Positions 40,221 to 56,001 of a stretch of 64,000 bases of DNA are shown in pieces; the stretch's first letter is position 1; the number at the start of each line of letters is the position of its first letter. The position numbers and the translations under genes were made by a program. The stretch is taken from positions 62,001 through 126,000 of the forward strand of contig JACPAV010000006.1 in assembly GCA_016180645.1 (NCBI GenBank). Reading direction: 5' to 3'. The notes below the pieces were generated by a model. The model saw only the letters and a list, made by a program, of their open reading frames with translations, was not told the DNA's origin and did no database searches. The stretch is from Nitrospirota bacterium (GTDB lineage Bacteria; JACPQY01).

Positions 40221-40412
40221 TTATTCCTTTCCGCCGATCCGCAAGGCTCCGTCCATGATCTTTTGAATCACCTCCTCCCTGAAGCGAAGAGCACGCCCTA
40301 ATTTCACCACCGCTCCCACCGGGAACTTTTTCAGATAGACCCATTTGTAGACCGTACTAACCTTCAGCCCGAGCTTTTCAGCCAGGTCAGGGGGTCTGAT
40401 GAGTTTCTGCAT
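40221..40412 (-). CDS. AlpA/excisionase-like small HTH protein
   Basis: 63 residues: MQKLIRPPDLAEKLGLKVSTVYKWVYLKKFP is the MerR-type winged-helix opening used by AlpA and excisionases. The frame continues upstream to 40646, but that part overlaps the next gene and is of shadow composition. It is 14 bases upstream of int and probably favours excision or controls int. Confidence 0.85.
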   Translation of the reverse strand: MQKLIRPPDLAEKLGLKVSTVYKWVYLKKFPVGAVVKLGRALRFREEVIQKIMDGALRIGGKE

Positions 40413-40417
40413 CGCGC

Positions 40418-40744
40418 CTACCTCCTCCCCTTGTCCTGGGGTGAAACAATCGTGCCATAGAGTCGTGCCGCCAAAACGCCCGCCGCGAGGATCAATCCTC
40501 CGACGGCCGCAGCTTTGGCGATCTCCTTCCCGAAATGCCGCTGGTCCGCCGCCCTTCGGAGCTTGAGGCACTCGCTCTGAAGAATTCCCAGGACCTGCCT
40601 CGCCAGCGGGTCTAGCCGAACTTCCTTGCCTCCCGCAGCTTCCCACCTGAAAATGCTACTCGGGTGAACACCAGCAGCCTTCGCCAGCTGTATCGGCGAC
40701 AGCCCGAGACACTCTCGAAGGTCTTCGATCTCCTGTCCGGTCAT
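40418..40744 (-). CDS. XRE-type HTH protein with a C-terminal membrane helix
   Basis: 108 residues. HTH at 1-55 (IEDLRECLGLSPIQLAKAAGVHPSSIFRWEAAG), a helical middle and one hydrophobic helix (about 78-98, AAAVGGLILAAGVLAARLYG). A DNA-binding protein tethered to the membrane is unusual and could report envelope state to the island. It is divergent from hsdR and may repress both directions from the shared A+T-rich region. It is followed closely by the excisionase gene (gap of 5 bases). Confidence 0.75.
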   Translation of the reverse strand: MTGQEIEDLRECLGLSPIQLAKAAGVHPSSIFRWEAAGGKEVRLDPLARQVLGILQSECLKLRRAADQRHFGKEIAKAAAVGGLILAAGVLAARLYGTIVSPQDKGRR

Positions 40745-40812
40745 ATTTATATAGAGTCTTATATACAATCCTATACAAGTCAAGCGATTTTTCTCCCTCA
40801 GGAGGTGTGCCA
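40745..40812. promoter_or_regulatory. A+T-rich divergent promoter/operator region
   Basis: Strikingly A+T-rich against the surrounding GC-rich DNA. Contains the near-palindrome TATATA-GAGTCT-TATATA (40748-40765) and repeated TATACAA words, plus TTGACT on the minus strand (40778-40783). It probably houses the promoters and operator of the XRE gene and of the hsd operon. I cannot assign single elements firmly. Confidence 0.5.
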
Positions 40813-40872
40813 ATGAGGGTGCTCCGAGAGGTGGACTGCTCAACAGCGGAGTCGTACAATTACCGGAATTGA
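40813..40872 (+). CDS. Short leader ORF ahead of hsdR
   Basis: 19 codons from an ATG that has a strong GGAGG ribosome site 7 bases upstream. The TGA ends one base before the hsdR ATG, which has no ribosome site of its own. hsdR is therefore likely translated by coupling to this leader peptide. No family resemblance. Confidence 0.45.
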   Translation: MRVLREVDCSTAESYNYRN

Positions 40873-40873
40873 C

Positions 40874-43567
40874 ATGGTGCAGGGGCTGGGCGACGAACTA
40901 GAGTGGAAGACCCGGAAAAAGCGAATCGATCCGAGGCTGGATGCCTGCGACTGGAGATTACCCACGAAAGGGCAAGTGCCCCTTCGGACGCCGTACCGGA
41001 CCGAGGAATACCCTACAGATAACGGGCCGGCAGATTACGCCCTGCATCTTGACGGGAAAGTTCTTGGGATCGTCGAGGCGAAGAAGGTAACACTCGGTCC
41101 GCAGAACGTTCTGACTCAAGCAGAGCGGTATGCACGCGGGGCCACCAATAACGGGTTCGATTTCAATGGACTGCGTGTACCGTTCCTCTATTCGACCAAC
41201 GGTGAAGTGATCTGGTTCCATGATATCCGACATCCCCTAAACCGGTCCCGTCGCATCGCCGGATTCCACACGCCCGAAGCCCTAAAAGAGCAACTTGGCC
41301 GCGATTTCGACGCCTCCTGCCGATGGTTTACGGAGAATGCGAATGCCCACCCAAGATTGCGCCCCTACCAAGTAGAGGCAAACACCGCCACGGAGCAGGC
41401 CATCGCGAACCGGAAACGCGAAATGCTCGTGGCGATGGCCACGGGCTCCGGCAAGACGTTCACCATGGCGAATCAGATGTATCGATTCATGAAGTCCGGT
41501 GTATCCAAGCGCATTCTTTTCCTGGTGGATCGGCGGGCGCTCGCCGCCCAAGCCGTTCGCACGCTCGCCTCATTCGAACCGGAACCCGGACAGAAGTTCG
41601 ACAAGCTCTACGAGGTTTACAGCCAACGTTTCCACCGCGACGATCTCGACGAAGAGGAGAAATTCGATCCGGAAGTCCTTCCGTCAGACTACCTGCTGAA
41701 GCCCAGCCCCGATCACTCGTTCGTTTACGTCTGCACCATCCAGCGAATGGCGATAAATCTTTTTGGACGGAACGCGATTTTCGGCTCGGGCGACGAGGAA
41801 ATCGACGAGGATGCCGATCACCTCGATATCCCTATCCACGCCTTCGATGTCGTCATCGCCGACGAGTGCCACCGAGGCTACACATCTCAAGAACTTTCGG
41901 TCTGGCGGAACACGCTCGACCACTTCGATGCGATCAAAATCGGCCTCACCGCCACACCCGCCGCGCACACGACGAGCTATTTCAAGGAAGTCGTCTTCCG
42001 ATATGAGTACGAACGAGCCGTCCGGGAGGGCTATCTCGTGGATTACGATCCCGTTGCCGTTCACTCCGATGTGCGGCTGCGCGGCGTGTTCGTCAAAGAA
42101 GGGGAGAAAGTTGAGAGGGTGGATACGGAGACCGGAAACGAGCAACTCGATCTCATGGAGGACGAGAGGCATTTCGACGTGCCGGAGGTGGAACAGCACG
42201 TCACGTCTCCGGATTCCAATCGCAAGATCATTGAAGAACTCAAGAAACACGCCTTGGAGCATGAACAGAAATACGGGCGCTTTCCCAAGACGTTGATCTT
42301 CGCCGCAAACGACCTGCCGCACACCTCCCATGCCAATCAGCTCGTCGACATCTGCCGCCGGGCATTCGAACGGGGCGATGCCTTCGTTCAAAAGATCACG
42401 GGATCGAAGGACGTCGACCGACCTCTCCAGCGCATCCGGGAATTCCGCAACCGTCCCCTTCCGGGTATCGTCGTCTCGGTCGACATGATGTCCACCGGGG
42501 TCGACATCCCCGATCTGGAATTCATCGTTCTCCTTCGGCCCATCAAGTCCCGCATCCTTTTTGAGCAGATGCTGGGCCGGGGCACCCGGAAGGGCGAAAA
42601 ACATCCGGACAAATCCCATTTCACGGTATTCGACTGCTTCGGCGGTTCTCTTTTGGAATACTTCCGGAAGGCCACGGCAATTTCGGCCATCGCGCCGGAA
42701 CGGGTGGCCCGGACCATCGAAGAGGTCATCAATGATGTCTGGAGCAACCGGGACCGCGAGTACAACATCTGTTGCCTGGTGAAGCGGCTTCAACGTATCA
42801 ACAAGGAGATCGCGCCCGAGGGACGTGACAATCTGAAAGTTTTCTTGCCTGATGGCGATCTGGGCCGATACGCTCAAGGACTCCCCCACGCGCTCAATCA
42901 GGATTTCGTTGCCACGATGAAGCTCTTACGCGATCCCGACTTTCAGAAACTCCTGACCGATTTCCCCCGACCGAAACGCGTCTTTTACGTGGCCATCGAG
43001 AGCCAGGACACCGTCAGCTCGGAAGTCCTCATCCGGGATGCGGTTGGAAACGAATGGACGCCGGGGGACTACATCAAGGCCTTCCACGCTTTTGTTCGGG
43101 AGAATCCGGATCAGATCCAGGCGATTGGAATCCTCCTCAACCGACCCCAGGATTGGGGGATGGAGGCGCTCGTCGATCTTCAGAGCAAGCTGGCGGTCAC
43201 CAAACTGCGGTTCACTGTGAAGAACTTGCAGACGGCCTACGGCGCACGCTACAAGAAAGCCCTGGTGGACATCATCTCGATGATCAAGCATGCGGCACGC
43301 GAGGGGGAACCTCTCCTGACCGCCGAGGAGAGGGTTGAGAAGGTGTTCAACATCATCAGGTCGCGCTACGAATTCAGCTACGAACAACAGAATTGGCTCG
43401 CCAGAATCCGCGAGCATCTCGTGGCCAATTTGTCCATCGACCCGAAGGACTTCGACGAGATTCCTGTTCTCTCGCGCGAGGGAGGATGGCAGAAAGCCAG
43501 AGGTGTTTTCGAGAAGGGCCGGCTTCGCCAAATCCTCCAGGATTTCAACCAATCCATCGCCGCATGA
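40874..43567 (+). CDS. hsdR: Type I restriction enzyme R subunit
   Basis: ATP-dependent translocase and nuclease of the HsdRMS complex. 897 residues. The nuclease domain is marked by PADYALHLDGKVLGIVEAKK (Asp54, Glu68-x-Lys70). The SF2 helicase shows ATGSGKT (189-195), ADECHRG, GLTATP, STGVDIP and QMLGRGTR. The C-terminal helical part binds the methylase. It resembles the EcoEI-like group with the N-terminal HsdR_N domain. The stop overlaps the hsdM start (ATGA). Confidence 0.94.
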   Translation: MVQGLGDELEWKTRKKRIDPRLDACDWRLPTKGQVPLRTPYRTEEYPTDNGPADYALHLDGKVLGIVEAKKVTLGPQNVLTQAERYARGATNNGFDFNGLRVPFLYSTNGEVIWFHDIRHPLNRSRRIAGFHTPEALKEQLGRDFDASCRWFTENANAHPRLRPYQVEANTATEQAIANRKREMLVAMATGSGKTFTMANQMYRFMKSGVSKRILFLVDRRALAAQAVRTLASFEPEPGQKFDKLYEVYSQRFHRDDLDEEEKFDPEVLPSDYLLKPSPDHSFVYVCTIQRMAINLFGRNAIFGSGDEEIDEDADHLDIPIHAFDVVIADECHRGYTSQELSVWRNTLDHFDAIKIGLTATPAAHTTSYFKEVVFRYEYERAVREGYLVDYDPVAVHSDVRLRGVFVKEGEKVERVDTETGNEQLDLMEDERHFDVPEVEQHVTSPDSNRKIIEELKKHALEHEQKYGRFPKTLIFAANDLPHTSHANQLVDICRRAFERGDAFVQKITGSKDVDRPLQRIREFRNRPLPGIVVSVDMMSTGVDIPDLEFIVLLRPIKSRILFEQMLGRGTRKGEKHPDKSHFTVFDCFGGSLLEYFRKATAISAIAPERVARTIEEVINDVWSNRDREYNICCLVKRLQRINKEIAPEGRDNLKVFLPDGDLGRYAQGLPHALNQDFVATMKLLRDPDFQKLLTDFPRPKRVFYVAIESQDTVSSEVLIRDAVGNEWTPGDYIKAFHAFVRENPDQIQAIGILLNRPQDWGMEALVDLQSKLAVTKLRFTVKNLQTAYGARYKKALVDIISMIKHAAREGEPLLTAEERVEKVFNIIRSRYEFSYEQQNWLARIREHLVANLSIDPKDFDEIPVLSREGGWQKARGVFEKGRLRQILQDFNQSIAA

Positions 43568-45003
43568 GTGACGTCGTCCAAAAACTTTGGGGCTTTTGCC
43601 ACACCCTCCGTCACGACGGCATCAGCTACGGCGACTACATCGAACAAATCACCTATCTGCTCTTTCTGAAAATGGCCGACGAGAAGGACGTGAGAATTCC
43701 CAAAGCGTGCGCGTGGCCCGAACTTCGTGCCCAATCGGGCAGCGACCTTCTCGACGGCTACGTGGATATTCTCCGAAAGCTTGGGAAGGAGAAAGGCATC
43801 CTCGGTGATATCTACTCCTCCGCGCAGTCGCGGTTCCGGAATCCCGTCAATCTCAAGAAATTGATCAGTTTGATCGATGAGACGGAATGGACGGCGCTCG
43901 GCGTGGACGTGAAGGCCGAAGCCTACGAGGGCCTCCTGGAAAAAGCGGCCAGCGAGGGCAAGAAAGGAGCGGGGCAATACTTCACCCCGCGCATTCTGAT
44001 CCAGTCGATTGTCCGTTGCATGAAACCCGATCCGAGGAAACACGCCGAGTTCACTATTTGCGATCCCGGCTGCGGAACGGGTGGATTTCTCGTGGCGGCG
44101 TATGAATGGCTTGTCGGTCGAACAAAGGGCGGCGCGCTGGATCGCGAGATCGCAAAGCGAATTAGGGCGAAAACCTATTTCGGCCAGGACCTCGATCCCC
44201 AGCCGCGCCGTCTTGCCCTGATGAATCTCTATCTCCACGGTTTGGAGGCGGTCATCGCGCTGGGCGACTCAATCTACGAGCCACCGGGAAGTGAGAAGTT
44301 CGATGTTGTCCTGACGAATCCACCTTTCGGGACGCGAGGCGCGAACCAAGCGCCGGACCGGGAAGATTTCACCGTGGCCACGTCGAATAAACAGCTCAAT
44401 TTCGTCCAGCACGTCCTCACCATTCTGAAGCCCGGCGGTCGGGCGGCGATTGTGTTGCCGGACAATTGCTTGTTCGAGGATCAGGCCGGAGAGGTGATGA
44501 AAATACTCACCGAGGATTGCGATCTCCATACGGTATTACGCTTGCCGCGTGGGACCTTCACCCCCTACAGCCAGGGCGTGAAGGCAAATGTTGTGTTTTT
44601 CACCAAGGGATACGCGACGGAGACGGTATGGATTTACGACGCCCGAACGAACGTGCCGGGGATCACCAAGAAAGATCGCCCGCTCGCGCCGAAGCACTTC
44701 GAGGGATTCGAGAAGTGCTATGGCTCCGATCCGAATGGCCGTGGAAAACGGAATCCGACGGACTCGAAGGAGGATCGTTGGCGGAGCTTCCATATTTCAG
44801 ATGTCAAAACCCACGATTTCAAGCTGGACAGCTTCAAATGGCTCAAGGAAGACTCCCTTGAGGACGCCGATGACCTCCCGGACCCAGAGGAACTCGTAGC
44901 CGACGCCGTTTCCGAACTCAATGCCGCCATGAAGGATTTGAACAAGATCATGGCGTATCTTGAGAATGGAGAAGCGGTACCAAACAAACCGAAGGGGACA
45001 TGA
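43564..45003 (+). CDS. hsdM: Type I restriction-modification methyltransferase M subunit
   Basis: N6-adenine methyltransferase of the HsdRMS complex. 479 residues: N-terminal helical HsdM_N domain (about 1-135), SAM motif DPGCGTGGF and catalytic NPPFG. A 58-codon upstream open stretch overlaps hsdR and is not part of the gene. Overlaps at both ends (ATGA) give a tightly coupled R-M-S operon. Confidence 0.95.
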   Translation: MSDVVQKLWGFCHTLRHDGISYGDYIEQITYLLFLKMADEKDVRIPKACAWPELRAQSGSDLLDGYVDILRKLGKEKGILGDIYSSAQSRFRNPVNLKKLISLIDETEWTALGVDVKAEAYEGLLEKAASEGKKGAGQYFTPRILIQSIVRCMKPDPRKHAEFTICDPGCGTGGFLVAAYEWLVGRTKGGALDREIAKRIRAKTYFGQDLDPQPRRLALMNLYLHGLEAVIALGDSIYEPPGSEKFDVVLTNPPFGTRGANQAPDREDFTVATSNKQLNFVQHVLTILKPGGRAAIVLPDNCLFEDQAGEVMKILTEDCDLHTVLRLPRGTFTPYSQGVKANVVFFTKGYATETVWIYDARTNVPGITKKDRPLAPKHFEGFEKCYGSDPNGRGKRNPTDSKEDRWRSFHISDVKTHDFKLDSFKWLKEDSLEDADDLPDPEELVADAVSELNAAMKDLNKIMAYLENGEAVPNKPKGT

Positions 45004-46376
45004 TAGTTACAGCACCCAACTCGGCGACCGGCACTCCTTCGGCTCCGAGTCACTCTGAACTCCCCGAACGGTGGACAATTGCCAAGCTTCTGGAGGTTTG
45101 CGAGCTGAATCCGAAGAAGCCGGCGAGGAACGCCCTGCCGAAAACCGCTCCAGTATCATTCGTGCCAATGGCGGCGGTAGACGAGAAGGAGGGCGCGATT
45201 CGTATAGTCCATGAGCGGGCATTCGCAAGCGTAAGGAATGGGTACACTGCCTTTCGTGAAGGCGACGTATTGATGGCAAAAATCACCCCGTGTATGGAGA
45301 ATGGCAAAGCGGCTGTTGCCCGAGGCTTGAAGAATGGGATCGGTTTCGGATCAAGCGAATTCCATGTTCTCCGTCCGTCCCCGCAGGTGTTGCCTGAGTT
45401 CATCTTTCACTTCATTCGGCAAGAATCGTTCAGAAGGCGCGCCGAAAATGAAATGACGGGTTCAGTGGGGCAAGAAAGGGTACCAACGGAATTCTTCGAC
45501 GATGTCGAGATTCCGTTTGCGCGCATATCAGACCAGAAGCGGCTTGTGGCGGTCGTTGAAACCCTGCTCGCCCAAGCCCATTCCGCCCGCGAACGTTTGG
45601 CGCGGGTGCGTGGAATAATGAAGCGCTTCCGTCAGTCCGTCCTCGCCGCCGCCTGCTCCGGCCGCCTCACCGCCGACTGGCGGGAGGAGGAGGCCGTGGC
45701 TTCAGAGATCGCTGACGAGCCTTGGCAATTCGAAAGCATCGCTTCTGTGTGCTCAGAGGTTGTCGACTGCCCACACTCAACTCCAAAGTGGGCCGACAGG
45801 GGCGAGATCTGTCTAAGAACCACAAATTTCACCATTGATGGGTTGGATCTTTCGACCGTACGGTACGTTTCGCGTGAGACCTACAGTCAGCGGGTGATCC
45901 GGCTAGAGCCGAGGCAGGACGACATTGTGTATAGCCGAGAAGGAGGAATCCTCGGAATAGCATGTATCATTCCAGCGGGCCTTCGCGCGTGCCTGGGTCA
46001 GCGGATGATGCTTATGCGTTGCAACCAGAAGACAATTCGGGCCAATTTTCTTTGCCATGTACTGAACTCCCCTCAGATGATGCATCGCGTAGTAGAACTC
46101 ACCGGCGGGAGCGCTTCTCCGCATCTCAATGTAGGGGTCATTAAGAGGTTTCCAGTTCCATCTCCTCGACTAGAAGAGCAGGATGAAATTCTCCGTCGCG
46201 TCGAGTCCCTTTTCAGGCTCGCGGACAAAATCGAGGAGCGCGTTTCCACCGCCGCCGCCCGCGCCGACAAACTCACCCAATCCATCCTCGCCAAAGCCTT
46301 CCGCGGCGAACTTTTCCTCACGCATGCTGATTCAACCCATTGCGAACCGACCTCCGGACATGCAATTAAACGATGA
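45000..46376 (+). CDS. hsdS: Type I restriction-modification specificity S subunit
   Basis: Defines the DNA target. 458 residues with two target-recognition domains (about 15-180 and 225-400), each followed by a long helix (first spacer around DQKRLVAVVETLLAQAHSARERLARVRGIMKRF, second around EEQDEILRRVESLFRLADKIEERV). The gene order R-M-S is continuous and intact, so the system is probably active. Its stop is 6 bases from the stop of the convergent SIR2 gene. Confidence 0.93.
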   Translation: MIVTAPNSATGTPSAPSHSELPERWTIAKLLEVCELNPKKPARNALPKTAPVSFVPMAAVDEKEGAIRIVHERAFASVRNGYTAFREGDVLMAKITPCMENGKAAVARGLKNGIGFGSSEFHVLRPSPQVLPEFIFHFIRQESFRRRAENEMTGSVGQERVPTEFFDDVEIPFARISDQKRLVAVVETLLAQAHSARERLARVRGIMKRFRQSVLAAACSGRLTADWREEEAVASEIADEPWQFESIASVCSEVVDCPHSTPKWADRGEICLRTTNFTIDGLDLSTVRYVSRETYSQRVIRLEPRQDDIVYSREGGILGIACIIPAGLRACLGQRMMLMRCNQKTIRANFLCHVLNSPQMMHRVVELTGGSASPHLNVGVIKRFPVPSPRLEEQDEILRRVESLFRLADKIEERVSTAAARADKLTQSILAKAFRGELFLTHADSTHCEPTSGHAIKR

Positions 46377-46382
46377 GGCAGA

Positions 46383-47474
46383 TCACGCAGCCGAATTGGT
46401 GCTTTGGGAAAGGACCTGGCGACAAAGATCGGAAAATGTCTTATAGATTGTCACTCCGTTCGCGGATCGGCCGCGGAAGAACTTCTTCATCTTTTTCTGG
46501 ACGCAATCGGAAGGATCCACCACCACGATTCTACGGTACTTTGTATTCTTATCATTCATCGCCTTTGAGAGAATTGCCCGAAGATGGAAATCGGTTGAGA
46601 TGAGGGAACATCCGATGATTACAATCTGATCTGCGTCCTTTGCGGCTCCGTATGTAGCTATCCATAGCTTCCGCCAGAATTGGTTCCTAAAGAATTTCGA
46701 ATAGAGCGGCGGAACAAAGAGGCGTACCAATCGTTGCGCCTTCCTTTCATTTACCATTGGGAGTGCAGTCATTCGGATCTCAGAAACAGGGCGACGTTCA
46801 AGCACTTCTTCGAGATTCTTGGAGTTCCCTTTAGCGAACCAGTTAAGTGACCCGTGGGGCTTGAGAAGCCGCACACTTATGAGATGCACTTGCTGGCCAT
46901 ACTGGGGGACTGAGATTTCACTGCTTAGTCTTGCGGAAAAGCCGTACCCTTTTCGAGGATTCCAGCCCGCCGTAAATAACGCGTTGTCTACAAGCGTGTC
47001 ATAGTTGAGGGAGACGATCACATCATGCGGTTGTAGCGAACGTGCGAGAAGATCGTGATGTTGAATGCCATCCCGAGGACGACAAGTCTTTTGAACAAAA
47101 CGGAACAAGTGGATCAACAGATTGAGAAAATCTCTAATTTCGGGCCTGTACCCTACCGATGTTTTTCTGCCTCTCCCCTTATGAAAGATTTCCGGCAGAT
47201 CTTTGGAGATAAAGAGGATGCTAAAGACTTCCTCCATGGTCGGTTGGCGGAAGCCTTTCGGTCCGACCTCGTGGTTCACGAAATCAGCAAGCCGGTCGTA
47301 GGCGGCTCTATGCGTTTGGCCGTCATTCGTCCGAATGTATTTTCTGAGCACTTCAAAGAAATCGCCATTAAGGGGGGCAGTTACCCGAGGGGAATGCGTC
47401 CCTCTAAGTGCACCTTTCGTCGCGCCGGCGCCAAGGACGATCAACGTCTTTGAGTTGCGACCATTGATGATCAC
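46383..47474 (-). CDS. SIR2-domain protein, probable NAD-degrading defence effector
   Basis: 363 residues of the SIR2_2-like group. Visible motifs are the NAD-binding start IVLGAGAT (12-19), SLNYDTLVDNAL with the Asn-Tyr-Asp triad, LLKPHGSLNW with the His-Gly pair, and IIGCSLISTDFHL. Stand-alone SIR2 proteins of this kind act as NADases in several anti-phage systems. The GTG at 47474 has GAGGGAG upstream, and a TTG at 47504 is an alternative. It lies downstream of three mini-HTH genes on the same strand, convergent with hsdS. No TIR, MORN or STAND module is fused to it. Confidence 0.82.
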   Translation of the reverse strand: MIINGRNSKTLIVLGAGATKGALRGTHSPRVTAPLNGDFFEVLRKYIRTNDGQTHRAAYDRLADFVNHEVGPKGFRQPTMEEVFSILFISKDLPEIFHKGRGRKTSVGYRPEIRDFLNLLIHLFRFVQKTCRPRDGIQHHDLLARSLQPHDVIVSLNYDTLVDNALFTAGWNPRKGYGFSARLSSEISVPQYGQQVHLISVRLLKPHGSLNWFAKGNSKNLEEVLERRPVSEIRMTALPMVNERKAQRLVRLFVPPLYSKFFRNQFWRKLWIATYGAAKDADQIVIIGCSLISTDFHLRAILSKAMNDKNTKYRRIVVVDPSDCVQKKMKKFFRGRSANGVTIYKTFSDLCRQVLSQSTNSAA

Positions 47475-47543
47475 TGCAACTCCCTCACCCGTCCGAAACC
47501 ACAAGACGGCGTAAGCGCAACCGCATCATGAACAGCCAGCGGC

Positions 47544-47741
47544 TTACCTTCTGCGCCCAACCTTAGTGCGCCGCCCAGCGTATTTCCTAGGATTGAGAAT
47601 CTGCGAGAGACGTCCTTGCGAAATCCCCATAGCGCTGGAAATCTCCGGATTGGGAATCTCGGCCTTCCTCAGAAGTAAGACCAGAAGCCGGGACATCGTC
47701 CGAAGTTCCTTCAGGATGAGTTGAGCTATTTCGTCATTCAT
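47544..47741 (-). CDS. Mini-HTH protein 1
   Basis: 65 residues: a leucine-rich N-terminal helix (IAQLILKELRTMSRLLVLLL) followed by a helix-turn-helix (IPNPEISSAMGISQGRLSQILN) and a basic tail (AGRRTKVGRRR). Third of three consecutive genes with the same plan, 69 bases upstream of the SIR2 start. The hydrophobic helix suggests oligomers. Function unknown. Confidence 0.7.
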   Translation of the reverse strand: MNDEIAQLILKELRTMSRLLVLLLRKAEIPNPEISSAMGISQGRLSQILNPRKYAGRRTKVGRRR

Positions 47742-47755
47742 TCTTCCCCCCGTTG

Positions 47756-47992
47756 TTAGGAATTCCTTCGGGGAAGCTTGGCGATCCCCCTCTTGCGTAG
47801 ATTCGCCAAGGCCACATTGACGGTATTAGAAGTCGTGTTGAGGGCTTTGGCGATCTCTGTGGGCCGCATGCCAGCAAGGCTTAGAAGCCGGATTTGTTCA
47901 GACTGAGTTTTCCCCTCCGTCATCCGTAGAACCATCAACGTAAGAATCCCATTCAGCTTTGATACGATCGATTGGGCTAATTGCTGTTCCAT
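47756..47992 (-). CDS. Mini-HTH protein 2
   Basis: 78 residues: leucine-rich N-terminal helix (LAQSIVSKLNGILTLMVLRM), an acidic turn, then a sigma-region-4-like HTH (IRLLSLAGMRPTEIAKALNTTSNTVNVALANLRKRG) and basic end. It follows mini-HTH 3 by 3 bases. Confidence 0.72.
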   Translation of the reverse strand: MEQQLAQSIVSKLNGILTLMVLRMTEGKTQSEQIRLLSLAGMRPTEIAKALNTTSNTVNVALANLRKRGIAKLPRRNS

Positions 47993-47995
47993 TAG

Positions 47996-48223
47996 CTAGA
48001 TCCTCCTCTTCGATTTCGCTTGTGCTATGGTTGCCGTAACGAAGTTAATTGGCTTCCCTACAATTCGAGCAATCTCTGAAGGGCTTGCTCCCATTGCAAG
48101 CAGTCTTCGGATCTTCTGCGCTGCGCTGGCGATTTCATCAAAATCGACCTGGTCAAGCAGAAGAGCCGTGATGAGGTCGAGCCGTCTTGCAATTCCCTCA
48201 AGAATGTCATCTTTTCGTTTCAT
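47996..48223 (-). CDS. Mini-HTH protein 3 (first gene of the operon)
   Basis: 75 residues: N-terminal helix (IARRLDLITALLLDQVDFD), HTH (KIRRLLAMGASPSEIARIVGKPINFVTATIAQAK) and basic tail. A strong promoter and an AAGGAGG ribosome site precede it. The three proteins share the plan but are not close copies, so they look like an old tandem set that may form a hetero-oligomer. Confidence 0.72.
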   Translation of the reverse strand: MKRKDDILEGIARRLDLITALLLDQVDFDEIASAAQKIRRLLAMGASPSEIARIVGKPINFVTATIAQAKSKRRI

Positions 48224-48244
48224 AGCTACCTCCTTGTGTTACTA

Positions 48245-48273
48245 AGCATAATATCTAGCTAAGAGGCTGTCAA
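48245..48273 (-). promoter_or_regulatory. Promoter of the mini-HTH/SIR2 operon
   Basis: On the minus strand TTGACA (48268-48273) and TATGCT (48245-48250) are separated by 17 bases. The predicted start lies about 15 bases upstream of the ATG, leaving room for the AGGAGG site. It is one of the best promoter matches in the window. Confidence 0.7.
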
Positions 48274-48346
48274 TAGGCAATACTCCAGTCATTAGTTAGG
48301 CTATGAATGTTCGGAGGCGTTACACTTTATTACGGTCAATCAAGGG

Positions 48347-48415
48347 TTACCGGCGAAGGTCATCCATCCGGTCCCGCAGGCAGGTGAGGAGCCGGATCAG
48401 GGCCTCCGGGCTCAT
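48347..48415 (-). CDS. Possible 22-codon ORF
   Basis: MSPEALIRLLTCLRDRMDDLRR with a GGGGGAG ribosome-site-like sequence immediately upstream. It would be the last gene of the nuclease-EVE operon. A short amphipathic helix is all that can be said. It may be chance. Confidence 0.25.
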   Translation of the reverse strand: MSPEALIRLLTCLRDRMDDLRR

Positions 48416-48465
48416 GTCTCCCCCATCCCCGAACGGAAGTCTCCGATTGGCGCTCCGCCGCCGGC

Positions 48466-48897
48466 TCACGGGAACCCTGCGGCAGAAGACCTTCGGAGAG
48501 GGCCGATCCCGGCGCTTTGAGGCGGTTTCCGGTCGACGACACCCATTTCCGTTTCAGCGCTCAGGACGATAGGATCCTTTCTCCATTCCTCTTCATCCTT
48601 GAGCTTCTCAAGCCCCCACCGCCGTCCCCGGTCGATAGGCTTCCTCCCGTCGTCGCTCAGGCCGCTGAACAGCCGCCAAGCCGTCTCCTGAACCAAGTCC
48701 TGCGCACGGACCACGTAATCCCGCGCCCAGTACCAAGGAACATCGCGGTGCTTGAGGAGATCGATCCATTTCCCAAGGGAAGTAGGCTGCCGGCGCAGGG
48801 TTTGAAGGCTCTCCATCTCGGACCAAGGATCGAAGGATGGGGCCGATGGCTTCGACCGCCTCCCTCCGATCCGGCCTTTCGTTGCACGTCTACCCAC
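48466..48897 (-). CDS. Small basic protein, partner of the truncated EVE copy
   Basis: 143 residues. The GTG at 48897 overlaps the EVE-fragment stop by 8 bases. Its opening (GRRATKGRIGGRRSKPSAP) resembles the opening of the 81-residue protein at 50248-50493 (GKRTNQGRGSGRRPKRSAP), which overlaps the full EVE gene in the same way. The middle contains a helical stretch (YWARDYVVRAQDLVQETAWRLFSGL) that faintly recalls sigma region 2, and the C-terminal 30 residues are low-complexity. No known family. Confidence 0.5.
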   Translation of the reverse strand: MGRRATKGRIGGRRSKPSAPSFDPWSEMESLQTLRRQPTSLGKWIDLLKHRDVPWYWARDYVVRAQDLVQETAWRLFSGLSDDGRKPIDRGRRWGLEKLKDEEEWRKDPIVLSAETEMGVVDRKPPQSAGIGPLRRSSAAGFP

Positions 48898-49213
48898 GGC
48901 GGGTGAGCACCTCGAAATCATGCGCGGTGATCCGGTGCGTCGGCTGGACGAACCAGGCCCATGGACGCTCCGGATCGTGGTCGCGGAAAACATCGAGCCT
49001 CGCGCGGAGGCGCACATCGAGGGCGACCGGACTGTCGATGTAAAGGGCGACGTCCGCGAGCCTGACGAGCCAGGGGTACTTCTCAGGCACCTCCACGGGA
49101 GCCTTGAGTCCTTTTTCCACCGCCGACGCAAGCCGCGCATGGCCGACAGTGCCCTTGGAGGCGGCGTAGAAGCAGATAGAGTCCCCAGCCTTGGCCGACT
49201 TCCGGGCCGCACT
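48890..49213 (-). pseudogene. Truncated EVE-domain copy
   Basis: Encodes GDSICFYAASKGTVGHARLASAVEKG... through HRITAHDFEVLTRRG, closely matching the C-terminal EVE domain of the gene at 50486-51628 (QICFYACGVGAVAHARIAS ... RRISPKDFEILTSRG). The first third of the EVE domain and the whole nuclease domain are missing, and a stop (49216-49214) closes the frame upstream. A GTG at 49120 could start a shorter product. It is the relic of a duplicated module. Confidence 0.8.
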
Positions 49214-49228
49214 CTAGTCCCACGAACC

Positions 49229-49504
49229 TCAAAGAGTTGTACCCACCGCCCAATACGTGACCGTGAGGCCGCACTTGAAGAAAGTCGCCTTCATCTCCGC
49301 CGCTGCGTCGCTCGGCCAGTAGCCGCCGACTTCTACCGTGAACTCGGCTTCAGCGCCACCTACCCCGTCCTTTGCCTCCGAGACGGCGAGAGGACCTTGG
49401 AACGCGTACCGCAATGTTGTGTGGGAGGATTCCGCCAGGCGGCGCTGAATGTCCGCAACTTTCTCCGGCGTTGGATACGGTTTGAACTGGACGAGGAGTT
49501 TCAT
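49229..49504 (-). CDS. Uncharacterised 91-residue protein
   Basis: Starts MKLLVQFKPYPTPEKVADIQRRLAES and ends FFKCGLTVTYWAVGTTL: an alternating strand-helix-strand pattern of a small alpha/beta protein. The ATG overlaps the phosphoesterase stop by 4 bases, so the two are made together. No family recognised. The frame open up to 49594 lies inside the phosphoesterase gene and is ignored. Confidence 0.6.
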   Translation of the reverse strand: MKLLVQFKPYPTPEKVADIQRRLAESSHTTLRYAFQGPLAVSEAKDGVGGAEAEFTVEVGGYWPSDAAAEMKATFFKCGLTVTYWAVGTTL

Positions 49505-50223
49505 CGGCTTGGTATCGATAGCTCGATCACCATCCCGTCCGGCCCCGGATTCACGATCCGGGTGGAGCCGATGGAATCCTCCCGCCCGAAACACTCATGG
49601 AAGTGACCGCAGATGACGATGCGGGGCTTCAAGGATTCGACGATCCTACGCACCGCCTTGCTGCCGATGCGCTTGCCGTCTTTGGGCACCGTCCAAAGCG
49701 AGCCGGTCCAGATCGGCTCCAGACCACAACAGGCCGTGTCGGACGGCGGGAAGTGCGTGAGAAAAATCACCGGAAGGGCCGGGTCGACCTGCGCTTTCAG
49801 GGTGGGCAGGTAGCTCCCGTAGCACTCCTGGTCTTCTCCGAAGAGCGGGGATAGGTCGGTCGTGCCGTCTAGACCGGCAATCAGGACTCTCGTGCCCTCC
49901 GCCGCGCCGAACACGTCAACCTTGAGATCGACATACCGCAGGACCGGGAACGCCTTGGAGACCGCAGAGCAAATGGTTCCGTACTCGTGGTTCCCGGCGA
50001 TGAAGTAGATCGGGATTCCAGCCTCGCTGAGCATCTTGAAGGATGGATGGAGACCTTCCGATTCGATGGTGAAGTCCCCCGCGCACACGATGAACGACGC
50101 CCGGCTCTCTCGTGTGAGGCGGAGGACCTTCTGGATCGACTCGACTGAGGCGTGGTGGTCCGTGAACGCTACGAAGCGAACCGGCGGGGAGGACGTCCGC
50201 TCCTGTTGTTCCTTCACGGGCAT
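49501..50223 (-). CDS. Calcineurin-like metallophosphoesterase
   Basis: 240 residues with the five metal-binding blocks in order: FTDHHA (the usual D-x-H), CAGDF, GNHE, THFPP and GHFH. Substrates in the family include nucleotides, cyclic nucleotides and nucleic acid ends. Lying between the nuclease-EVE gene and the small genes in a coupled operon, it may process nucleic acid ends or a nucleotide signal, but this is inference. Confidence 0.85.
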   Translation of the reverse strand: MPVKEQQERTSSPPVRFVAFTDHHASVESIQKVLRLTRESRASFIVCAGDFTIESEGLHPSFKMLSEAGIPIYFIAGNHEYGTICSAVSKAFPVLRYVDLKVDVFGAAEGTRVLIAGLDGTTDLSPLFGEDQECYGSYLPTLKAQVDPALPVIFLTHFPPSDTACCGLEPIWTGSLWTVPKDGKRIGSKAVRRIVESLKPRIVICGHFHECFGREDSIGSTRIVNPGPDGMVIELSIPSR

Positions 50224-50247
50224 GACCTACCCGCAGCTTCCCGCAAC

Positions 50248-50493
50248 TCAATGCTTGGAGGAACCCGCATCGACCCGACGCTGGAGGGACATCGCCATCT
50301 CCAGCGCGTACTGGACACGATCCCGGAGTTGGACCCACTGGCGATGCACTCTCTCCATCCCGTTCACTCGGTCGCGAACAATGGTCAAGATCTGGATCAG
50401 ATCCTCCGCGTCGAACTCCTCATCCAAGGGAGGAGGGGCCGACCGTTTCGGCCGCCTCCCACTACCCCGCCCTTGGTTCGTTCTCTTACCCAC
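50248..50493 (-). CDS. Small basic/coiled-coil protein coupled to the nuclease-EVE gene
   Basis: 81 residues: a basic, disordered-looking opening (GKRTNQGRGSGRRPKR) followed by a long amphipathic helix (EDLIQILTIVRDRVNGMERVHRQWVQLRDRVQYALEMAMSLQRRV). It starts at a GTG that overlaps the nuclease-EVE stop by 8 bases. A DNA- or partner-binding accessory subunit is likely. A diverged relative occupies the same position behind the truncated EVE copy. Confidence 0.65.
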   Translation of the reverse strand: MGKRTNQGRGSGRRPKRSAPPPLDEEFDAEDLIQILTIVRDRVNGMERVHRQWVQLRDRVQYALEMAMSLQRRVDAGSSKH

Positions 50494-51628
50494 GGCTGGT
50501 GAGGATCTCGAAGTCCTTGGGGGAGATCCGCCGTGTCATCTTGAGGAACCACCCCCAGGACCCTTCCGGGTTCCGACCCTCGAACGCATCGAGCTCGGCA
50601 CGCACCTTCGCGTTGAGCACCTTGGGTTGCTCGACGTACAGGTGGACATCACCCAGCCGGATGCCCCAAGGATACTTCTCCGGGATAGGCACCTCGGCGT
50701 GGAGCCCCTTTTCCGGCCTGGAGGCGATTCGGGCATGGGCAACCGCCCCCACGCCGCAGGCGTAGAAACAGATCTGATCGTTCTCCTTCATCTGCCTCCG
50801 GGCGGGGGACCGGTCCCCAAGGGCGAACACGCGCCCGACACCCACGAGGGAGCGGATGATCTCGGTGGCCTTCGATCCATTCGATCCGACCGGGGCCAGC
50901 CAGCAGGTAGGCTCATCGGCGGTGACCACCTTTTCAGTGGAGGGAGCCAATGCCGGCTTGGGGAGGGTGTCCGGCTCCCGGCGGGCCATCAGGCGGGCGA
51001 GGAGGTCCACCACGGGGTCGACGTCCGGCGTGGAAGGCCGGAGGATGGCCAGTACATCCTCATGGGTGGCCTCCTGCTCGTCCACCATCTCCGCGAGGGA
51101 GAGGAGGGATTCGACGGAGGCCACTCGGAGTTGATGGGTCCTCTTTTCTGCGATGATGGCGTTCTCAAGCTGTCGCACCTGGGGATCGGGCCGTCCGACG
51201 ACATACAGCCCCAGGGCGTGGTCCCAGCCGGGTATGACCCCTTGGGAGATGAGTTCATCCACGTACCCCACCAAGGCGGAGGTCTTGATGGCATAGGTTT
51301 CGGAGGTCTTCACCTCGATGACGAGGGAGAACCCTCCGGGAGATTTCCAGAGGCCGTCGAAGCCGACCTCTCCCCGGCCCCCGTTGTACCGGCCATAGGC
51401 GACATCGAACCCGAGGAGTTCCCCCAAACGGACCACCATATCCTGGAGCGCCCGGCTGGGCTGTTCGCCGGTCTCGCCGAGGCATTCCTCGATGTAGTCC
51501 CGGAGCTGGCCTACCTCCATGACGTTGCTCCGCAGATAGGACCGGAACCGCTCGCGCGGGGTGTTTTCGCCGGGGCTGTCGTCCAGCCTCCCGGCGAGGT
51601 CGAGTATCCGTTTCAAGCTGATCATCAT
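50486..51628 (-). CDS. PD-(D/E)xK nuclease fused to an EVE domain
   Basis: 380 residues. The N-terminal domain (about 25-130) has a restriction-endonuclease-like core: GEVGFDGLW (Asp91) and SLVIEVKTS (Glu105-x-Lys107). A middle helical linker (about 150-235) follows. The C-terminal domain (about 240-380) is an EVE/PUA-like fold: CWLAPVGSNG, QICFYACGVGAVAHARIAS, IPEKYPWGIRLGDV, and ISPKDFEILTSRG. EVE domains read modified bases, so the fusion looks like a modification-dependent restriction enzyme. First gene of an operon with overlapping starts. AAAGGAGG precedes the ATG. Confidence 0.8.
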   Translation of the reverse strand: MMISLKRILDLAGRLDDSPGENTPRERFRSYLRSNVMEVGQLRDYIEECLGETGEQPSRALQDMVVRLGELLGFDVAYGRYNGGRGEVGFDGLWKSPGGFSLVIEVKTSETYAIKTSALVGYVDELISQGVIPGWDHALGLYVVGRPDPQVRQLENAIIAEKRTHQLRVASVESLLSLAEMVDEQEATHEDVLAILRPSTPDVDPVVDLLARLMARREPDTLPKPALAPSTEKVVTADEPTCWLAPVGSNGSKATEIIRSLVGVGRVFALGDRSPARRQMKENDQICFYACGVGAVAHARIASRPEKGLHAEVPIPEKYPWGIRLGDVHLYVEQPKVLNAKVRAELDAFEGRNPEGSWGWFLKMTRRISPKDFEILTSRG

Positions 51629-51730
51629 TTTCTACCTCCTTTACGTCTCTTTCCGTTCTCTCGGCCTCACTCAGCCAAGATGACTATTTGTCAACACCAA
51701 CGCTCTTGGGCCGCGACAAGTCAAGTACTT

Positions 51731-52207
51731 TCAAACAGATCGGGGCTTCATGGCCTGCTCGATTTCGGCCTTCCGAAGATGGGCAATGTAGGCAGGATTT
51801 GAGACGAGGTTGAAGGCGTAGGCGAGGGCCGGATTCAATTCGGAAGGGATCGGCGTGCCTGCTGGACCCAGGTGCCACAAGCGATCCGCGAAATCGTGAT
51901 CGCAGGAAACGACGCCGATGGGGTCAGGGAGGTCCGCGGTGACCTTGTCCAGTGTCCTTCCCGATAGGAAATGGGCGTAGAGGCCGTAAGCGGGGGGATC
52001 AGTGGAGCAACGGTGGATGACAACGCCCCGGTCGGAAGCCGTGTGCGATTTGAAGACGACGAGCCAATCGGGGGCGGGGAAAGAGTGTTGGCCCACCGCT
52101 GTCCGGGCCGTCGGCTGGATCGCCGCGCCGGCCGCCATATCGGCGGCCATCCGGAGGAACTCCCGCCGTTCGAGGTGTTTTGCACTGCTCGGTCTCTTGG
52201 CGTCCAT
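51731..52207 (-). CDS. Uncharacterised protein with a Tat-like N-terminus
   Basis: 158 residues. The N-terminus has RREFLRMAADMAAGAAIQPTA, a twin-arginine followed by a moderately hydrophobic stretch. The remainder (WLVVFKSHTASDRGVV, GVVSCDHDFADRLWHLGPAG) is a soluble domain I do not recognise. It lies upstream of the nuclease-EVE operon on the same strand with a 102-base gap that includes TTGACA-like words. Confidence 0.5.
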   Translation of the reverse strand: MDAKRPSSAKHLERREFLRMAADMAAGAAIQPTARTAVGQHSFPAPDWLVVFKSHTASDRGVVIHRCSTDPPAYGLYAHFLSGRTLDKVTADLPDPIGVVSCDHDFADRLWHLGPAGTPIPSELNPALAYAFNLVSNPAYIAHLRKAEIEQAMKPRSV

Positions 52208-52334
52208 TGGTCGCCATGGACGCTTCGTTCCCGCGAACAGTCAAGTCGATTCGGACGATTTCAGACTATGGGTTGCTATTCAGAACTCTTGGCCGAAGTT
52301 CGGGGAAGAGCAGCGAAGTAAGGGGATGGGGGGA

Positions 52335-52772
52335 TTACAGACAGCCGGTGGTGGTCTTGGAGCAGGTGCAGTCGCAGGAGTTCGCGCCAAGCGTACAAGG
52401 GTCCTTGGTGCCCATGCAGGTGGACTCGGCGGTGAATGCGACGGAACTCGATGAGGCCGATGAACTTTCGCATGAGGTGACGTTCACGCTGGCGTTCGCG
52501 GTCGTACAAACCGCCGTACAGCGGCAGTTCCAGTTGACCTTGGTCGTGGTGACGGTGGTTGTCGTCGCTGTGTCCGTTTGGCCGGTCTTGGAATCCTTCG
52601 TGGTGGTCGTTGTGCTTTTCGTAGAGCCTGAGCTGCTCGTGGTAGTGGCGGTCTCCTCGTCATCCCCGTCCAGGAGATCTTCCAACTCACCGCAGGCGAC
52701 GAGCGGTGCCATTAGGCAGAGGAGAATTGCAAATGTCTTCAACCCTGAAGAACGAACTTTTGCTTGCATCAT
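52335..52772 (-). CDS. Ser/Thr-rich lipoprotein with a Cys-rich C-terminal module
   Basis: 145 residues: signal peptide with lipobox (MAPLVAC), an acidic segment, a long Ser/Thr/Lys linker (about 40-78) and a Cys-rich end (WNCRCTAVC, CTCSKTTTGC) with eight or more cysteines. The Cys module resembles that of the next gene upstream (WSCNCDVTC). The 4-base overlap with that gene shows co-expression. Looks like a surface-displayed, disulfide-stabilised domain on a stalk. Confidence 0.65.
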   Translation of the reverse strand: MMQAKVRSSGLKTFAILLCLMAPLVACGELEDLLDGDDEETATTTSSSGSTKSTTTTTKDSKTGQTDTATTTTVTTTKVNWNCRCTAVCTTANASVNVTSCESSSASSSSVAFTAESTCMGTKDPCTLGANSCDCTCSKTTTGCL

Positions 52773-53590
52773 TTACAAAGATTTCGGGCGCAGGTCTTGG
52801 CAGTCGCAGAACACCCACAAGTCCCGCACGAGAGTTTTGCCGTCCCGGTTGGACATTGGTAGGAAACGACATCTTGGGAGCAATTTCCTGCGGCCGTTGT
52901 CGCGACCGTGGCCTTATCAGTATTGTCCAAGGCGCATTCGACGCCTGATGCATTGCCTATGATGATGGCCCCGCCTCTTGGTATTGTAATCGTCCTACTC
53001 GGAATCTGATTGGTACCCTGGCAAGTTACGTCGCAATTGCAGCTCCATTCTGCGCATGCGACAGGCTTCGTGTCGTCGTTGTCTGTTCCTCCGGAGACCT
53101 TGTCAACGTAGGAATCACAGTCCACATCGGGGCCACAAACATGATTCTTGGGATCGATGACTTTGGGAGAGTACTGGAAATTGATAGGGGCGGGTGGGGA
53201 GGGAGGGTCGATCACAATGACTGAACCAACTTGCGCTGCCTTCTGTTCGGGCTTTTCAAAACAATCCACGGTGAACAACTTGTAAGACCCAGCTGAAACT
53301 TGGGAAAAAGTGAATGTGCCATCCGAGTCCGTTAAGGTAGCTGCATTGGACGCTGATTTTTCAGTGGCGGAATCGACCAGAGCCAGTGGGAACTTCGAAA
53401 TCGGAGAACCATCGCAAGTTCGTTTGACCGTACCAGAGATCGACACGGTAGGAGGTGGAGGCGCCGCCGCCGTGGTCAGATCTGTGTCTCCTTGCTCCGG
53501 GTCGCCGCTACACGACATAGCGAGGGCGAGGAAAGTAGCAAGAAAATATGTGCGTGCGCCAGCCCGGCCTCTCTGGACATTGCCTCGCAT
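52769..53590 (-). CDS. Lipoprotein with a carboxypeptidase-regulatory-like domain and Cys-rich module
   Basis: 273 residues. Signal peptide and lipobox (FLALAMSC), a Pro linker, a CarboxypepD_reg/peptidase-associated beta domain (SISGTVKRTCDGSPISKFPLALVD ... GSYKLFTVDC), then a Cys-rich part (WSCNCDVTC, LSCGTCGCSATAKTCARNLC). The ATG at 53590 gives the cleaner signal peptide, and one at 53626 is possible. A minus-strand promoter-like pair TTGACT/TATTCT (18 bases apart, about 53640-53672) overlaps the divergent XRE gene. Confidence 0.65.
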   Translation of the reverse strand: MRGNVQRGRAGARTYFLATFLALAMSCSGDPEQGDTDLTTAAAPPPPTVSISGTVKRTCDGSPISKFPLALVDSATEKSASNAATLTDSDGTFTFSQVSAGSYKLFTVDCFEKPEQKAAQVGSVIVIDPPSPPAPINFQYSPKVIDPKNHVCGPDVDCDSYVDKVSGGTDNDDTKPVACAEWSCNCDVTCQGTNQIPSRTITIPRGGAIIIGNASGVECALDNTDKATVATTAAGNCSQDVVSYQCPTGTAKLSCGTCGCSATAKTCARNLCK

Positions 53591-53649
53591 CTTGGCTTGG
53601 CATCGATAAGACCCCCAGTATTCCATGTGTAGGGCGGAGAATACGTCCT

Positions 53650-54066
53650 ATGGATAGAATAAGTCAAGTCCTCTCTGTGTATTGGGATGTTCCGGGCCGG
53701 AGTCTGGCGGCCAATAATCGGGCCACGGTGGACCAGAAGGACAAGATCAAGGCCCTCGTGGGTGACCGGATGCAATCGCTTCGAAAGGCGAAGGGTCTGA
53801 CTCAGGGAGAGTTGTCCGAGAGGGTGGGCATCTCCGACAAGTACCTCTCGAACGTCGAGTGCGGACGGGAAAACCCGACGCTGGACACTCTCCTCGGCGT
53901 AGCCGCGGCCCTAGGCGTTCCGATCTGGGAATTCTTTGCAATCCAGGAAGCAAGCCTTTCTGACGTGGACAAGGTGAAGACGGCCCAATCGCTCTTGAAG
54001 AAGGCTGCCCCGAAAGACGTCGATATCGTTCTCCGCCTCCTCCGCGAGATCGGAATCAAGCCTTAG
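53650..54066 (+). CDS. XRE-family transcriptional regulator
   Basis: 138 residues. The HTH at about 38-95 (MQSLRKAKGLTQGELSERVGISDKYLSNVECGRENPTLDTLLGVAAALGVPIWEFF) is a textbook Cro/CI type. The N-terminal 30 residues are variable, so an internal start at the ATG at 53770 is possible. It is divergent from the lipoprotein pair and could repress it. Confidence 0.85.
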   Translation: MDRISQVLSVYWDVPGRSLAANNRATVDQKDKIKALVGDRMQSLRKAKGLTQGELSERVGISDKYLSNVECGRENPTLDTLLGVAAALGVPIWEFFAIQEASLSDVDKVKTAQSLLKKAAPKDVDIVLRLLREIGIKP

Positions 54067-54331
54067 CTGGGGGACGCCGGGGTGAGATCCGGCGGCCACG
54101 TTATCGCCGCGAGCGTCGCAGCCCAAGGACGAGTTCGTAGGCGTCTTGCGCGTGGTCGCGGAGGTCGGCGCATTCCCGCTTCGTTCCAAGGGCAAGTCAA
54201 ATCGTTTCGGATTCGACATAGGTCTGGACAAGCGTGGTTCGCGGGTGGCGAATGGGCGGTCGATTCACCTTCGATTCCCGCGCGGTGTACACGACCTCTC
54301 AAATTAGCGAAAATCAGGGTATAGTTGGGTC

Positions 54332-54565
54332 ATGAGTTTGCCAGGCCGAATTGCCGTTGATCCCAATTACTGTGGCGGGCGGCCCCATTTCCGGGGCACG
54401 CGAGTACCGGTCTATGTGGTGTTGGAGATGCTCGCGAATCGCGAGGACACGAATGAAATTCTATCCGAATATCCCAATCTTACCGCCGAGGATCTCCGGG
54501 ACGCGCTTGTGTACGCCAAGCAACTGGCTGAGATTCCGGGAGCGCCGTTAGCCGTCGGCTCCTGA
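54332..54565 (+). CDS. DUF433-family antitoxin
   Basis: 77 residues: RIAVDPNYCGGRPHFRGTRVPVYVVLEMLANREDTNEILSEYPNLTAEDLRDALVYA is the DUF433 winged-helix pattern (G-P-x-I/x-G-T-R). It precedes a DUF5615 gene, the usual partner. TATAGT lies 6 bases before the ATG (54320-54325), suggesting a leaderless transcript as for the VapBC-type pair at 3.4 kb. The 265 bases upstream are empty. Confidence 0.85.
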   Translation: MSLPGRIAVDPNYCGGRPHFRGTRVPVYVVLEMLANREDTNEILSEYPNLTAEDLRDALVYAKQLAEIPGAPLAVGS

Positions 54566-54599
54566 TCGCCGATCTCTGCATACGGCCCGAGCGGTCGCC

Positions 54600-54944
54600 G
54601 TGAAGATCATCGTCGACAACAACCTGCCAGCCAGTCTCGCTCACCTAATCCGTTCGGCCGGCTTCGACGCATCGCATGTTGTTGAGATCGGAATGGGATC
54701 TGCGAGTGACGCCGAGATACGCCGGAAATACGATCAGGAGAATATCATCTTCGTTTCTCGCGATTCCGATTTCTGGTTTCAGCGGCCGAAAGGTTGGTCA
54801 GTAGCTTGGATATCCGTTCACAACCCCACGCTTGCCCAATTGCGGGGACCCATCGCCCAGCGACTGAAGGAAGCATTGCCGAGAATGACGCCGGGGTCGA
54901 GGATGATGGTGACGGAGCAGGCGGTGGTCTTCTACAGCGGCTAG
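54600..54944 (+). CDS. DUF5615 PIN-like toxin
   Basis: 114 residues: IIVDNNLPASLAHLIRSAGFDASHVVEIGMGSASDAEI is the DUF5615/Mut7-C PIN-like start, with acidic residues in VDNNLP and FVSRDSDFW. It starts at a GTG, 34 bases after the antitoxin stop. Expected to be an RNase toxin. Confidence 0.82.
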   Translation: MKIIVDNNLPASLAHLIRSAGFDASHVVEIGMGSASDAEIRRKYDQENIIFVSRDSDFWFQRPKGWSVAWISVHNPTLAQLRGPIAQRLKEALPRMTPGSRMMVTEQAVVFYSG

Positions 54945-55024
54945 GGAGTAGATTCCTCCGCGGCACCTAGATTCATTGGCGATGCGTTGGGTTTGGCCTT
55001 CACGTGCCGGCGGCGAGAGGCTGG

Positions 55025-55600
55025 CTATAACCCTATTCCCTTGAGCGCCTTGTTGACCACGCGGTCCGACAGTTTGCCGACAACTTTCCGACCAATTCCG
55101 TCGATCACGCGCCCGGCCTCATCGGTCGCTTGCTCTTTGCCTACCACACTCGCCCGACCGGCCACGTAGCCGCCCAAGGCGGCTAAGCAAATACCACCAC
55201 CTATAACCCAAGGACTGGCCCACCAAGGCCGGGAGACCGAAGCCGGCACCTGTCGGCTTCGATCGTCTCGTTGAAACCGCAAGCCCGTGATCATTCTCGT
55301 CACCCCGTCCATCTTGGCGTTGAGAGAGGCGATTTGGTCGGCGGAGTAATCATGGGAAACAGCCGAGGGCTCAGGGGTGGGTGGGTTCAAGATTTCCGGC
55401 ATGGGTGCCTCCCATTGAGGGTTACCCCCAGGGGTAGGGGTAGGGCTCCCGAACCGTTGCATCGGCGCCGCCGGCGGCCTCGGCCGGAATTCGCACCGGC
55501 CCATGTGCCCGTTCGCCTGGTCGGATTCGTCATACGCCCTATCGCAGTACGGGCACGGGAACTTTCCTTCGGTGTTCCTCACGGGTTTCAATCTGCTCAT
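55025..55600 (-). CDS. C2HC zinc-finger protein with a membrane helix
   Basis: 191 residues: a zinc-finger-like start (CPYCDRAYDESDQANGHMGRC: Cys16-x2-Cys19-x12-His32-x3-Cys36), a Pro-rich linker (about 40-85), a helical stretch (DQIASLNAKMDGVTRMITGL) and one membrane helix (about 128-150, WASPWVIGGGICLAALGGYVAGRA) followed by a soluble tail. No family recognised. Last gene of the island before attR. Confidence 0.6.
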   Translation of the reverse strand: MSRLKPVRNTEGKFPCPYCDRAYDESDQANGHMGRCEFRPRPPAAPMQRFGSPTPTPGGNPQWEAPMPEILNPPTPEPSAVSHDYSADQIASLNAKMDGVTRMITGLRFQRDDRSRQVPASVSRPWWASPWVIGGGICLAALGGYVAGRASVVGKEQATDEAGRVIDGIGRKVVGKLSDRVVNKALKGIGL

Positions 55601-55798
55601 TGCGTGTCCTCCTTTCGCAGAGGTTGGTGGCTGTGGTGGTGGCTGTCGGCTCGTAAGGCCGGGCCATGGTGGTCCGACGCCGTCAATGACGGCGGTGGCG
55701 CGACATGGGTGAATAACTTCGAACTTTCGCAGACAAATCCGATTCCGTCGGGGATCGTCAAACAGTAGGAAAGACGTGAGGATCGAGGGCTGGAAGTG

Positions 55799-55874
55799 TT
55801 ATGAGACCCTCGCTCTGCCATTGAGCTACGCCGGCGAGCATTCGTAAAATGGACTCGGCACGTCCCCCTGTCAA
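55799..55874 (-). other. attR with the displaced ancestral tRNA 5' half and its promoter
   Basis: 55799-55837 repeats the tRNA 5' half. Joined to the 3' half at 38938-38972 it would give a tRNA with a perfect acceptor stem (C6-G67 instead of the present T6-G67). On the minus strand TTGACA (55869-55874) and CATTTT (55846-55851) are 17 bases apart and would start transcription close to the tRNA 5' end. This is therefore the original tRNA promoter, now separated from the tRNA. Confidence 0.85.
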
Positions 55875-55943
55875 TGAGCGAAACGCGTGATCCACGTTCA
55901 CCGCTCAATGGCGACGAACTGAACGCCATGAAAACCTATCGCG

Positions 55944-56001
55944 GCCATTGAGCTACGCCAACAATCGCTCGTAAGATGCACTCGGCGCGCGCGACTGTCA
56001 A
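55944..56001 (-). pseudogene. 5' remnant of a second tRNA gene with its promoter
   Basis: GCGTAGCTCAATGGC on the minus strand matches the start of the tRNA (acceptor end, T8, D stem), then the sequence diverges. Upstream, TTGACA (55996-56001) and CATCTT (55973-55978) are again 17 bases apart, the same geometry as at 55846-55874, and the intervening CGAGT-CATTTTACGA / CGAGTG-CATCTTACGA words agree. It is either an earlier integration scar or a broken tandem tRNA. Confidence 0.7.

Follow-up and report, generated by a model that had tools for sequence, protein, structure and literature searches.

A fusion of a PD-(D/E)xK nuclease with a divergent EVE-like domain, a probable modification-dependent restriction endonuclease of a putative tRNA-Met island

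Two kinds of described protein come closest to the one considered here. Fusions of EVE domains with PD-(D/E)XK nucleases were catalogued by Bell et al. 2020 as putative type IV restriction enzymes (PMC7641849), and this architecture is thus already described as a kind of modification-dependent restriction enzyme; the same study reports that standalone EVE proteins associate with COG1743/DUF499 systems (PMC7641849). VcaM4I is an EVE-HNH endonuclease, in which the base is flipped into a pocket with the residues P24, W82 and Y130 (PMC7897488). Here, we describe NucEVE, which joins a PD-(D/E)xK nuclease to a divergent EVE domain and is encoded on a stretch of 64,000 nucleotides from a Nitrospirota bacterium (the window). 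In our reading, to which we give a probability of about 0.68, NucEVE acts on its own as a modification-dependent (type IV-like) restriction endonuclease, carried by a tRNA-integrated defence island; the small protein B would be part of the same unit, and the metallophosphoesterase MPE and the small protein D would be neighbours. The initial annotation had proposed a type IV-like restriction operon of all four genes, of which we keep type IV-like restriction as the most likely reading of the fusion and give up the operon as a single system.

The fusion and its two domains are placed as follows:
50486..51628, minus strand: NucEVE, PD-(D/E)xK nuclease and EVE fusion, 380 aa; AAAGGAGGT precedes the gene
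50984..51628, minus strand: N-terminal nuclease domain of NucEVE, residues 1-215, with D91, E105 and K107
50489..50911, minus strand: C-terminal EVE-like domain of NucEVE, residues 240-380

Transcription on the minus strand runs in the order U (a Tat-signal protein), NucEVE, B, MPE, D, a second EVE copy and a B-like frame. NucEVE and MPE are clearly coding by codon usage, and the open reading frames lie where they had been placed before. We did not accept two antisense frames (48920-49606 and 50036-51802) as genes, their codon scores being close to zero and conserved genes lying opposite them. Direct scans of NucEVE against Pfam, NCBIfam and PADLOC gave no useful match, and the sequences of solved structures, searched with NucEVE, the NucEVE alignment, D and the MPE alignment, returned nothing informative. 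What bears out the proposed fusion is the catalytic triad, the folds matched by the domains and profile-profile evidence for the EVE part.

In the N-terminal domain, NucEVE has the catalytic D...E-x-K arrangement of the PD-(D/E)xK superfamily within the core fold. D91, E105 and K107, the residues first picked out from the single sequence, are each invariant in the nuclease-family alignment (32 of 32), and nuclease folds are matched: the nuclease part of the predicted structure, mostly at pLDDT 70-90, finds FokI (E 3.9e-4), Nt.BspD6I, EndoMS and an archaeal repair endonuclease as its best solved structures in Foldseek. No Pfam model covers this domain in the members scanned, and one relative has a sub-threshold match to NucS_C. 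The relatives come from bacterial and archaeal genomes and, in addition, from two viral contigs, which carry the same nuclease with a different C-terminus; phage records held no match to NucEVE, and the single match in plasmids, from Halalkalicoccus, is partial and covers the nuclease only. Most relatives carry another domain at the C-terminus, DUF4357 in one case, and four besides NucEVE have an EVE-like domain. Since the C-termini behind the same nuclease vary, the nuclease is best seen as a module with exchangeable partners, in which the C-terminal position can be taken by EVE, DUF4357 or other domains.

The C-terminal domain is more divergent. The initial annotation suggested a profile search of residues 240-380 against EVE; a Pfam scan gave no direct match to PF01878 in NucEVE, and the support came instead from profile-profile comparison and from weak YTH and EVE fold matches. 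Of the six sequences in the homologue alignment, four match PF01878 below the cut-off (best E 0.014), reaching at most 15.8 bits where the curated cut-off is 23 bits, and we therefore call the domain 'EVE-like' and not a Pfam member. When the domain was compared by hhalign with PF01878 members of other genomes, values of 81-93% were obtained, and all controls (20 column shuffles and one reversal) stayed below 1%. The structural model of the domain is weak (mean pLDDT 61); its first 25 Foldseek matches are all YTH domains, followed by the EVE proteins 1wmm and 1zce, and the best E-value is 0.035, so none is significant alone. By remote homology and fold, that is, the hhalign values and the weak yet uniform YTH/EVE matches, the domain falls in the EVE/YTH group of the PUA superfamily, and we take it as EVE-like from individually weak scores and a low-confidence model.

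These fold matches also bear on what is read. RNA readers are known among YTH and EVE domains, and several of the YTH domains that are the closest folds are in RNA complexes. The target of the domain could thus be a self mark or modified RNA, in which case NucEVE would act in suicide or regulation and not in restriction. The N-terminal domain, however, is closest to DNA endonucleases, and the defence-gene contexts described below fit DNA restriction; we consider an RNA or self-mark reader highly improbable.

Four full-length homologues of NucEVE were found, 40-54% identical:
L006: full-length homologue, in a record labelled Bryobacteraceae
L007: full-length homologue, in a record labelled Zipacnadia, with an in-frame TAG
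L008: full-length homologue, in a record labelled Planctomycetota, with a frameshift
L009: full-length homologue, in a record labelled Clostridia

None of MPE, B and D is present at the loci of the NucEVE family, where the sequence extends 98 bases past the gene at L007 and 1.8 kb upstream at L009. Recurrence of the partners with homologues of the fusion, as a conserved four-gene system would show it, was not seen, the flanks of L007 and L009 being incomplete. The available homologues of the fusion thus lacked the phosphoesterase and the small genes, an outcome that the initial annotation had named as refuting its reading. Other genes are found instead: at L008 one flank of the fusion has HmaB/DUF1156 and a HEC-01A-like ATPase, the opposite flank HmaC/DUF499, and at L007 it directly follows a QatC-like gene. 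The nuclease subfamily is in this way present in records of several distant groups, adjoining Hma and Qat genes.

The window has a defence context of its own, a putative tRNA-Met island of 16.8 kb (38938-55837) that holds HsdR/M/S, SIR2, three HTH genes and a DUF433/DUF5615 pair, and is marked by the following features:
38938-39009: tRNA-Met
39040-40344: tyrosine integrase
38973-39011 and 55799-55837: 39-bp repeat of part of tRNA-Met, 97% identical

The boundary is provisional, since it is the 5' part of the tRNA that the repeat spans, a less usual arrangement. A third copy of the tRNA-Met repeat, 69% identical, lies at 55926-55964, just past the putative island end. The SIR2-like protein (46383-48223, minus strand) comes after a run of three small HTH proteins, each 65-78 aa long, in a region with a GC content below that of the rest of the window. 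With HsdRMS on the same island as NucEVE, one homologue among HmaB/HmaC genes and another adjoining QatC, and with EVE proteins reported alongside type I RM and COG1743/DUF499 systems (PMC7641849), the fusion might be an effector swapped into Hma- or Qat-like systems, and in the window it would work with the type I RM genes and add specificity for modified DNA. We regard this as quite unlikely: HsdRMS is encoded on the strand opposite to NucEVE, with SIR2 and the three HTH genes in between, and L006 and L009 have no Hma-, Qat- or type I RM-like partner among the open reading frames read.

The genes around NucEVE that require a separate account are the following:
51731..52207, minus strand: U, Tat-signal, FlhB-C-like protein, upstream of NucEVE
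49501..50223, minus strand: MPE, metallophosphoesterase, 240 aa, Pfam Metallophos E 1e-15
49229..49504, minus strand: D, 91 aa, in ATGA overlap with the MPE stop

MPE scores 59.1 bits against PF00149 (cut-off 21.5), which places it in the calcineurin-like family, and the five metal blocks already recognized in the single sequence (D22xH24, GD50, GN78H79E, H157 and GH207xH209) are intact and invariant in three homologues. Overlapping starts had been described for the operon, and these are found between NucEVE and B (8 nt) and between MPE and D (4 nt), whereas B and MPE are separated by a gap of 24 nt; this tight packing makes co-expression of the four genes likely and may reflect a functional link at this locus. 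The codon score of D is at the 99th percentile of non-coding frames, and D has no homologue in 386 genomes or in plasmids, the one exception being a 78-bp piece of D in the same genome.

The distribution of MPE points away from NucEVE. Among 192 genomes, its only strong homologues are on a further contig of the same genome (C18, 55% identical) and on contig C29 of G001, the sole other genome of the source's family in the set, and neither locus has NucEVE; a search of viral contigs with MPE gave nothing. At all three MPE loci (3/3) a Tat-signal FlhB-C-like protein is encoded within about 3 kb, and two of the three are without NucEVE. U aligns with both of the other FlhB-C-like proteins, which resemble PF01312 with E-values of 1e-4 and 2.5e-13, and itself has no Pfam match. 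In 41 genomes the U family comprises exactly three loci (51731-52207, minus strand; L077:7337-7852; L078:3635-4123), whose proteins lack a clear NPTH autocleavage motif; the remaining matches score lower, mostly in frames as long as FlhB. C18 and the window also share XRE genes and the lipoproteins lipoA (52335-52772) and lipoB (52769-53626). As MPE and U recur together at two loci without the fusion, it is only here that NucEVE and B stand between them. What may be present is a lineage-specific MPE set, made up of XRE, the lipoproteins, the Tat FlhB-C-like protein and MPE, into which NucEVE and B would have been interposed. At L077:4659-9414, the MPE paralogue and the FlhB-C-like protein cluster with a SLOG (cpYpsA) protein and a protein with a cREC domain, and at 814-1122 of the same locus (on C18) there are scrambled fragments of B, XRE (92% identical in DNA) and D (96% in DNA), the XRE and D fragments overlapping by 15 bp.

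MPE is therefore probably not a partner of NucEVE, though co-transcribed with it by position. The contrary case is a single restriction system made up of NucEVE, B, MPE and D, with cut ends, modified nucleotides or a signal as the substrate of the phosphoesterase. It draws on the compact minus-strand operon, on the intact metal ligands of MPE and on its weak match to the candidate defence family PDC-S10. It is unlikely in our view, since MPE, B and D are absent from the loci of the NucEVE family, MPE homologues occur with U and without NucEVE at two loci, and D has no full-length homologue in the 386 genomes. A new composite system of NucEVE, B and MPE, with the phosphoesterase acting on nuclease products or on released modified nucleotides, seems distinctly improbable. 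A literature search yielded no paper joining a metallophosphoesterase, anti-phage activity, a restriction endonuclease and an operon. The phosphoesterase and the 91-residue protein, which had been taken as accessory parts, thus find no support as such: MPE tracks U, and neither MPE nor D is at the loci of the fusion's relatives. The case calls for caution in general: genes packed closely together on a mobile island need not form one system, and MPE follows other genes elsewhere.

B is a different matter, as its surroundings are partly repeated further along the window:
50248..50493, minus strand: B, 81 aa with a basic N-terminus; the GTG start and the NucEVE stop overlap by 8 nt
48890..49213, minus strand: second EVE copy, truncated, with no nuclease, no start and a TAG just upstream
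48466..48897, minus strand: B' open frame, overlapping the stop of the second EVE copy as B overlaps NucEVE

The second EVE copy, absent from the initial annotation, is 53% identical to the EVE domain of NucEVE over 107 residues, and B' resembles B over about the first 20 residues, the remainder being unlike B. At the DNA level, 48834-48973 and 50431-50569 are 72.5% identical over 142 bp. The codon score of B is at the 95th percentile of non-coding frames; B may be a companion of NucEVE, because a B-like start also follows the second EVE copy. The second EVE-B copy and the DNA repeat together indicate that the unit of NucEVE and B, which is probably one mobile unit, was probably duplicated or acquired twice, with one copy decayed. 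Our guess is that the decay of the second copy accompanied the arrival of MPE and D.

For a free-standing NucEVE, a mechanism can be proposed from its anatomy and from related enzymes. The EVE domain would flip a modified base of incoming DNA into a pocket; by analogy with VcaM4I, this base would most likely be a modified cytosine. Its capture would position or release the N-terminal PD-(D/E)xK domain, which would then make a metal-dependent cut nearby. Host DNA, being unmodified, would be spared, and as it would not carry the mark, no methyltransferase would be needed. The reader domain and the nuclease are present and the operon is without a methyltransferase, but HsdM is encoded on the same island.

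Among the known systems, PDC-S10 of PADLOC, a candidate defence family, is matched weakly by MPE (E 2e-8), over part of MPE only and best at residues 182-225. The Hma (HmaB/HmaC) and Qat (QatC) systems of PADLOC have two NucEVE homologues inside or beside their genes, whereas the window has neither system and carries HsdRMS and SIR2 instead; the HmaB/HmaC/DUF499 context of L008 resembles the COG1743-DUF499-EVE association of Bell et al. (PMC7641849). Like VcaM4I, NucEVE joins a modified-base reader (a role predicted for NucEVE) and a nuclease in a single polypeptide, but VcaM4I has an HNH nuclease and an N-terminal EVE domain, in contrast to the PD-(D/E)xK nuclease and C-terminal EVE-like domain of NucEVE. 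The fusions of Bell et al. (PMC7641849) share with NucEVE a divergent defence-type EVE domain and a PD-(D/E)xK nuclease; the nuclease subfamily of NucEVE, which has no Pfam model match, may or may not be among them. Modification-dependent restriction enzymes would with NucEVE gain a nuclease subfamily that lies outside all Pfam/NCBIfam models.
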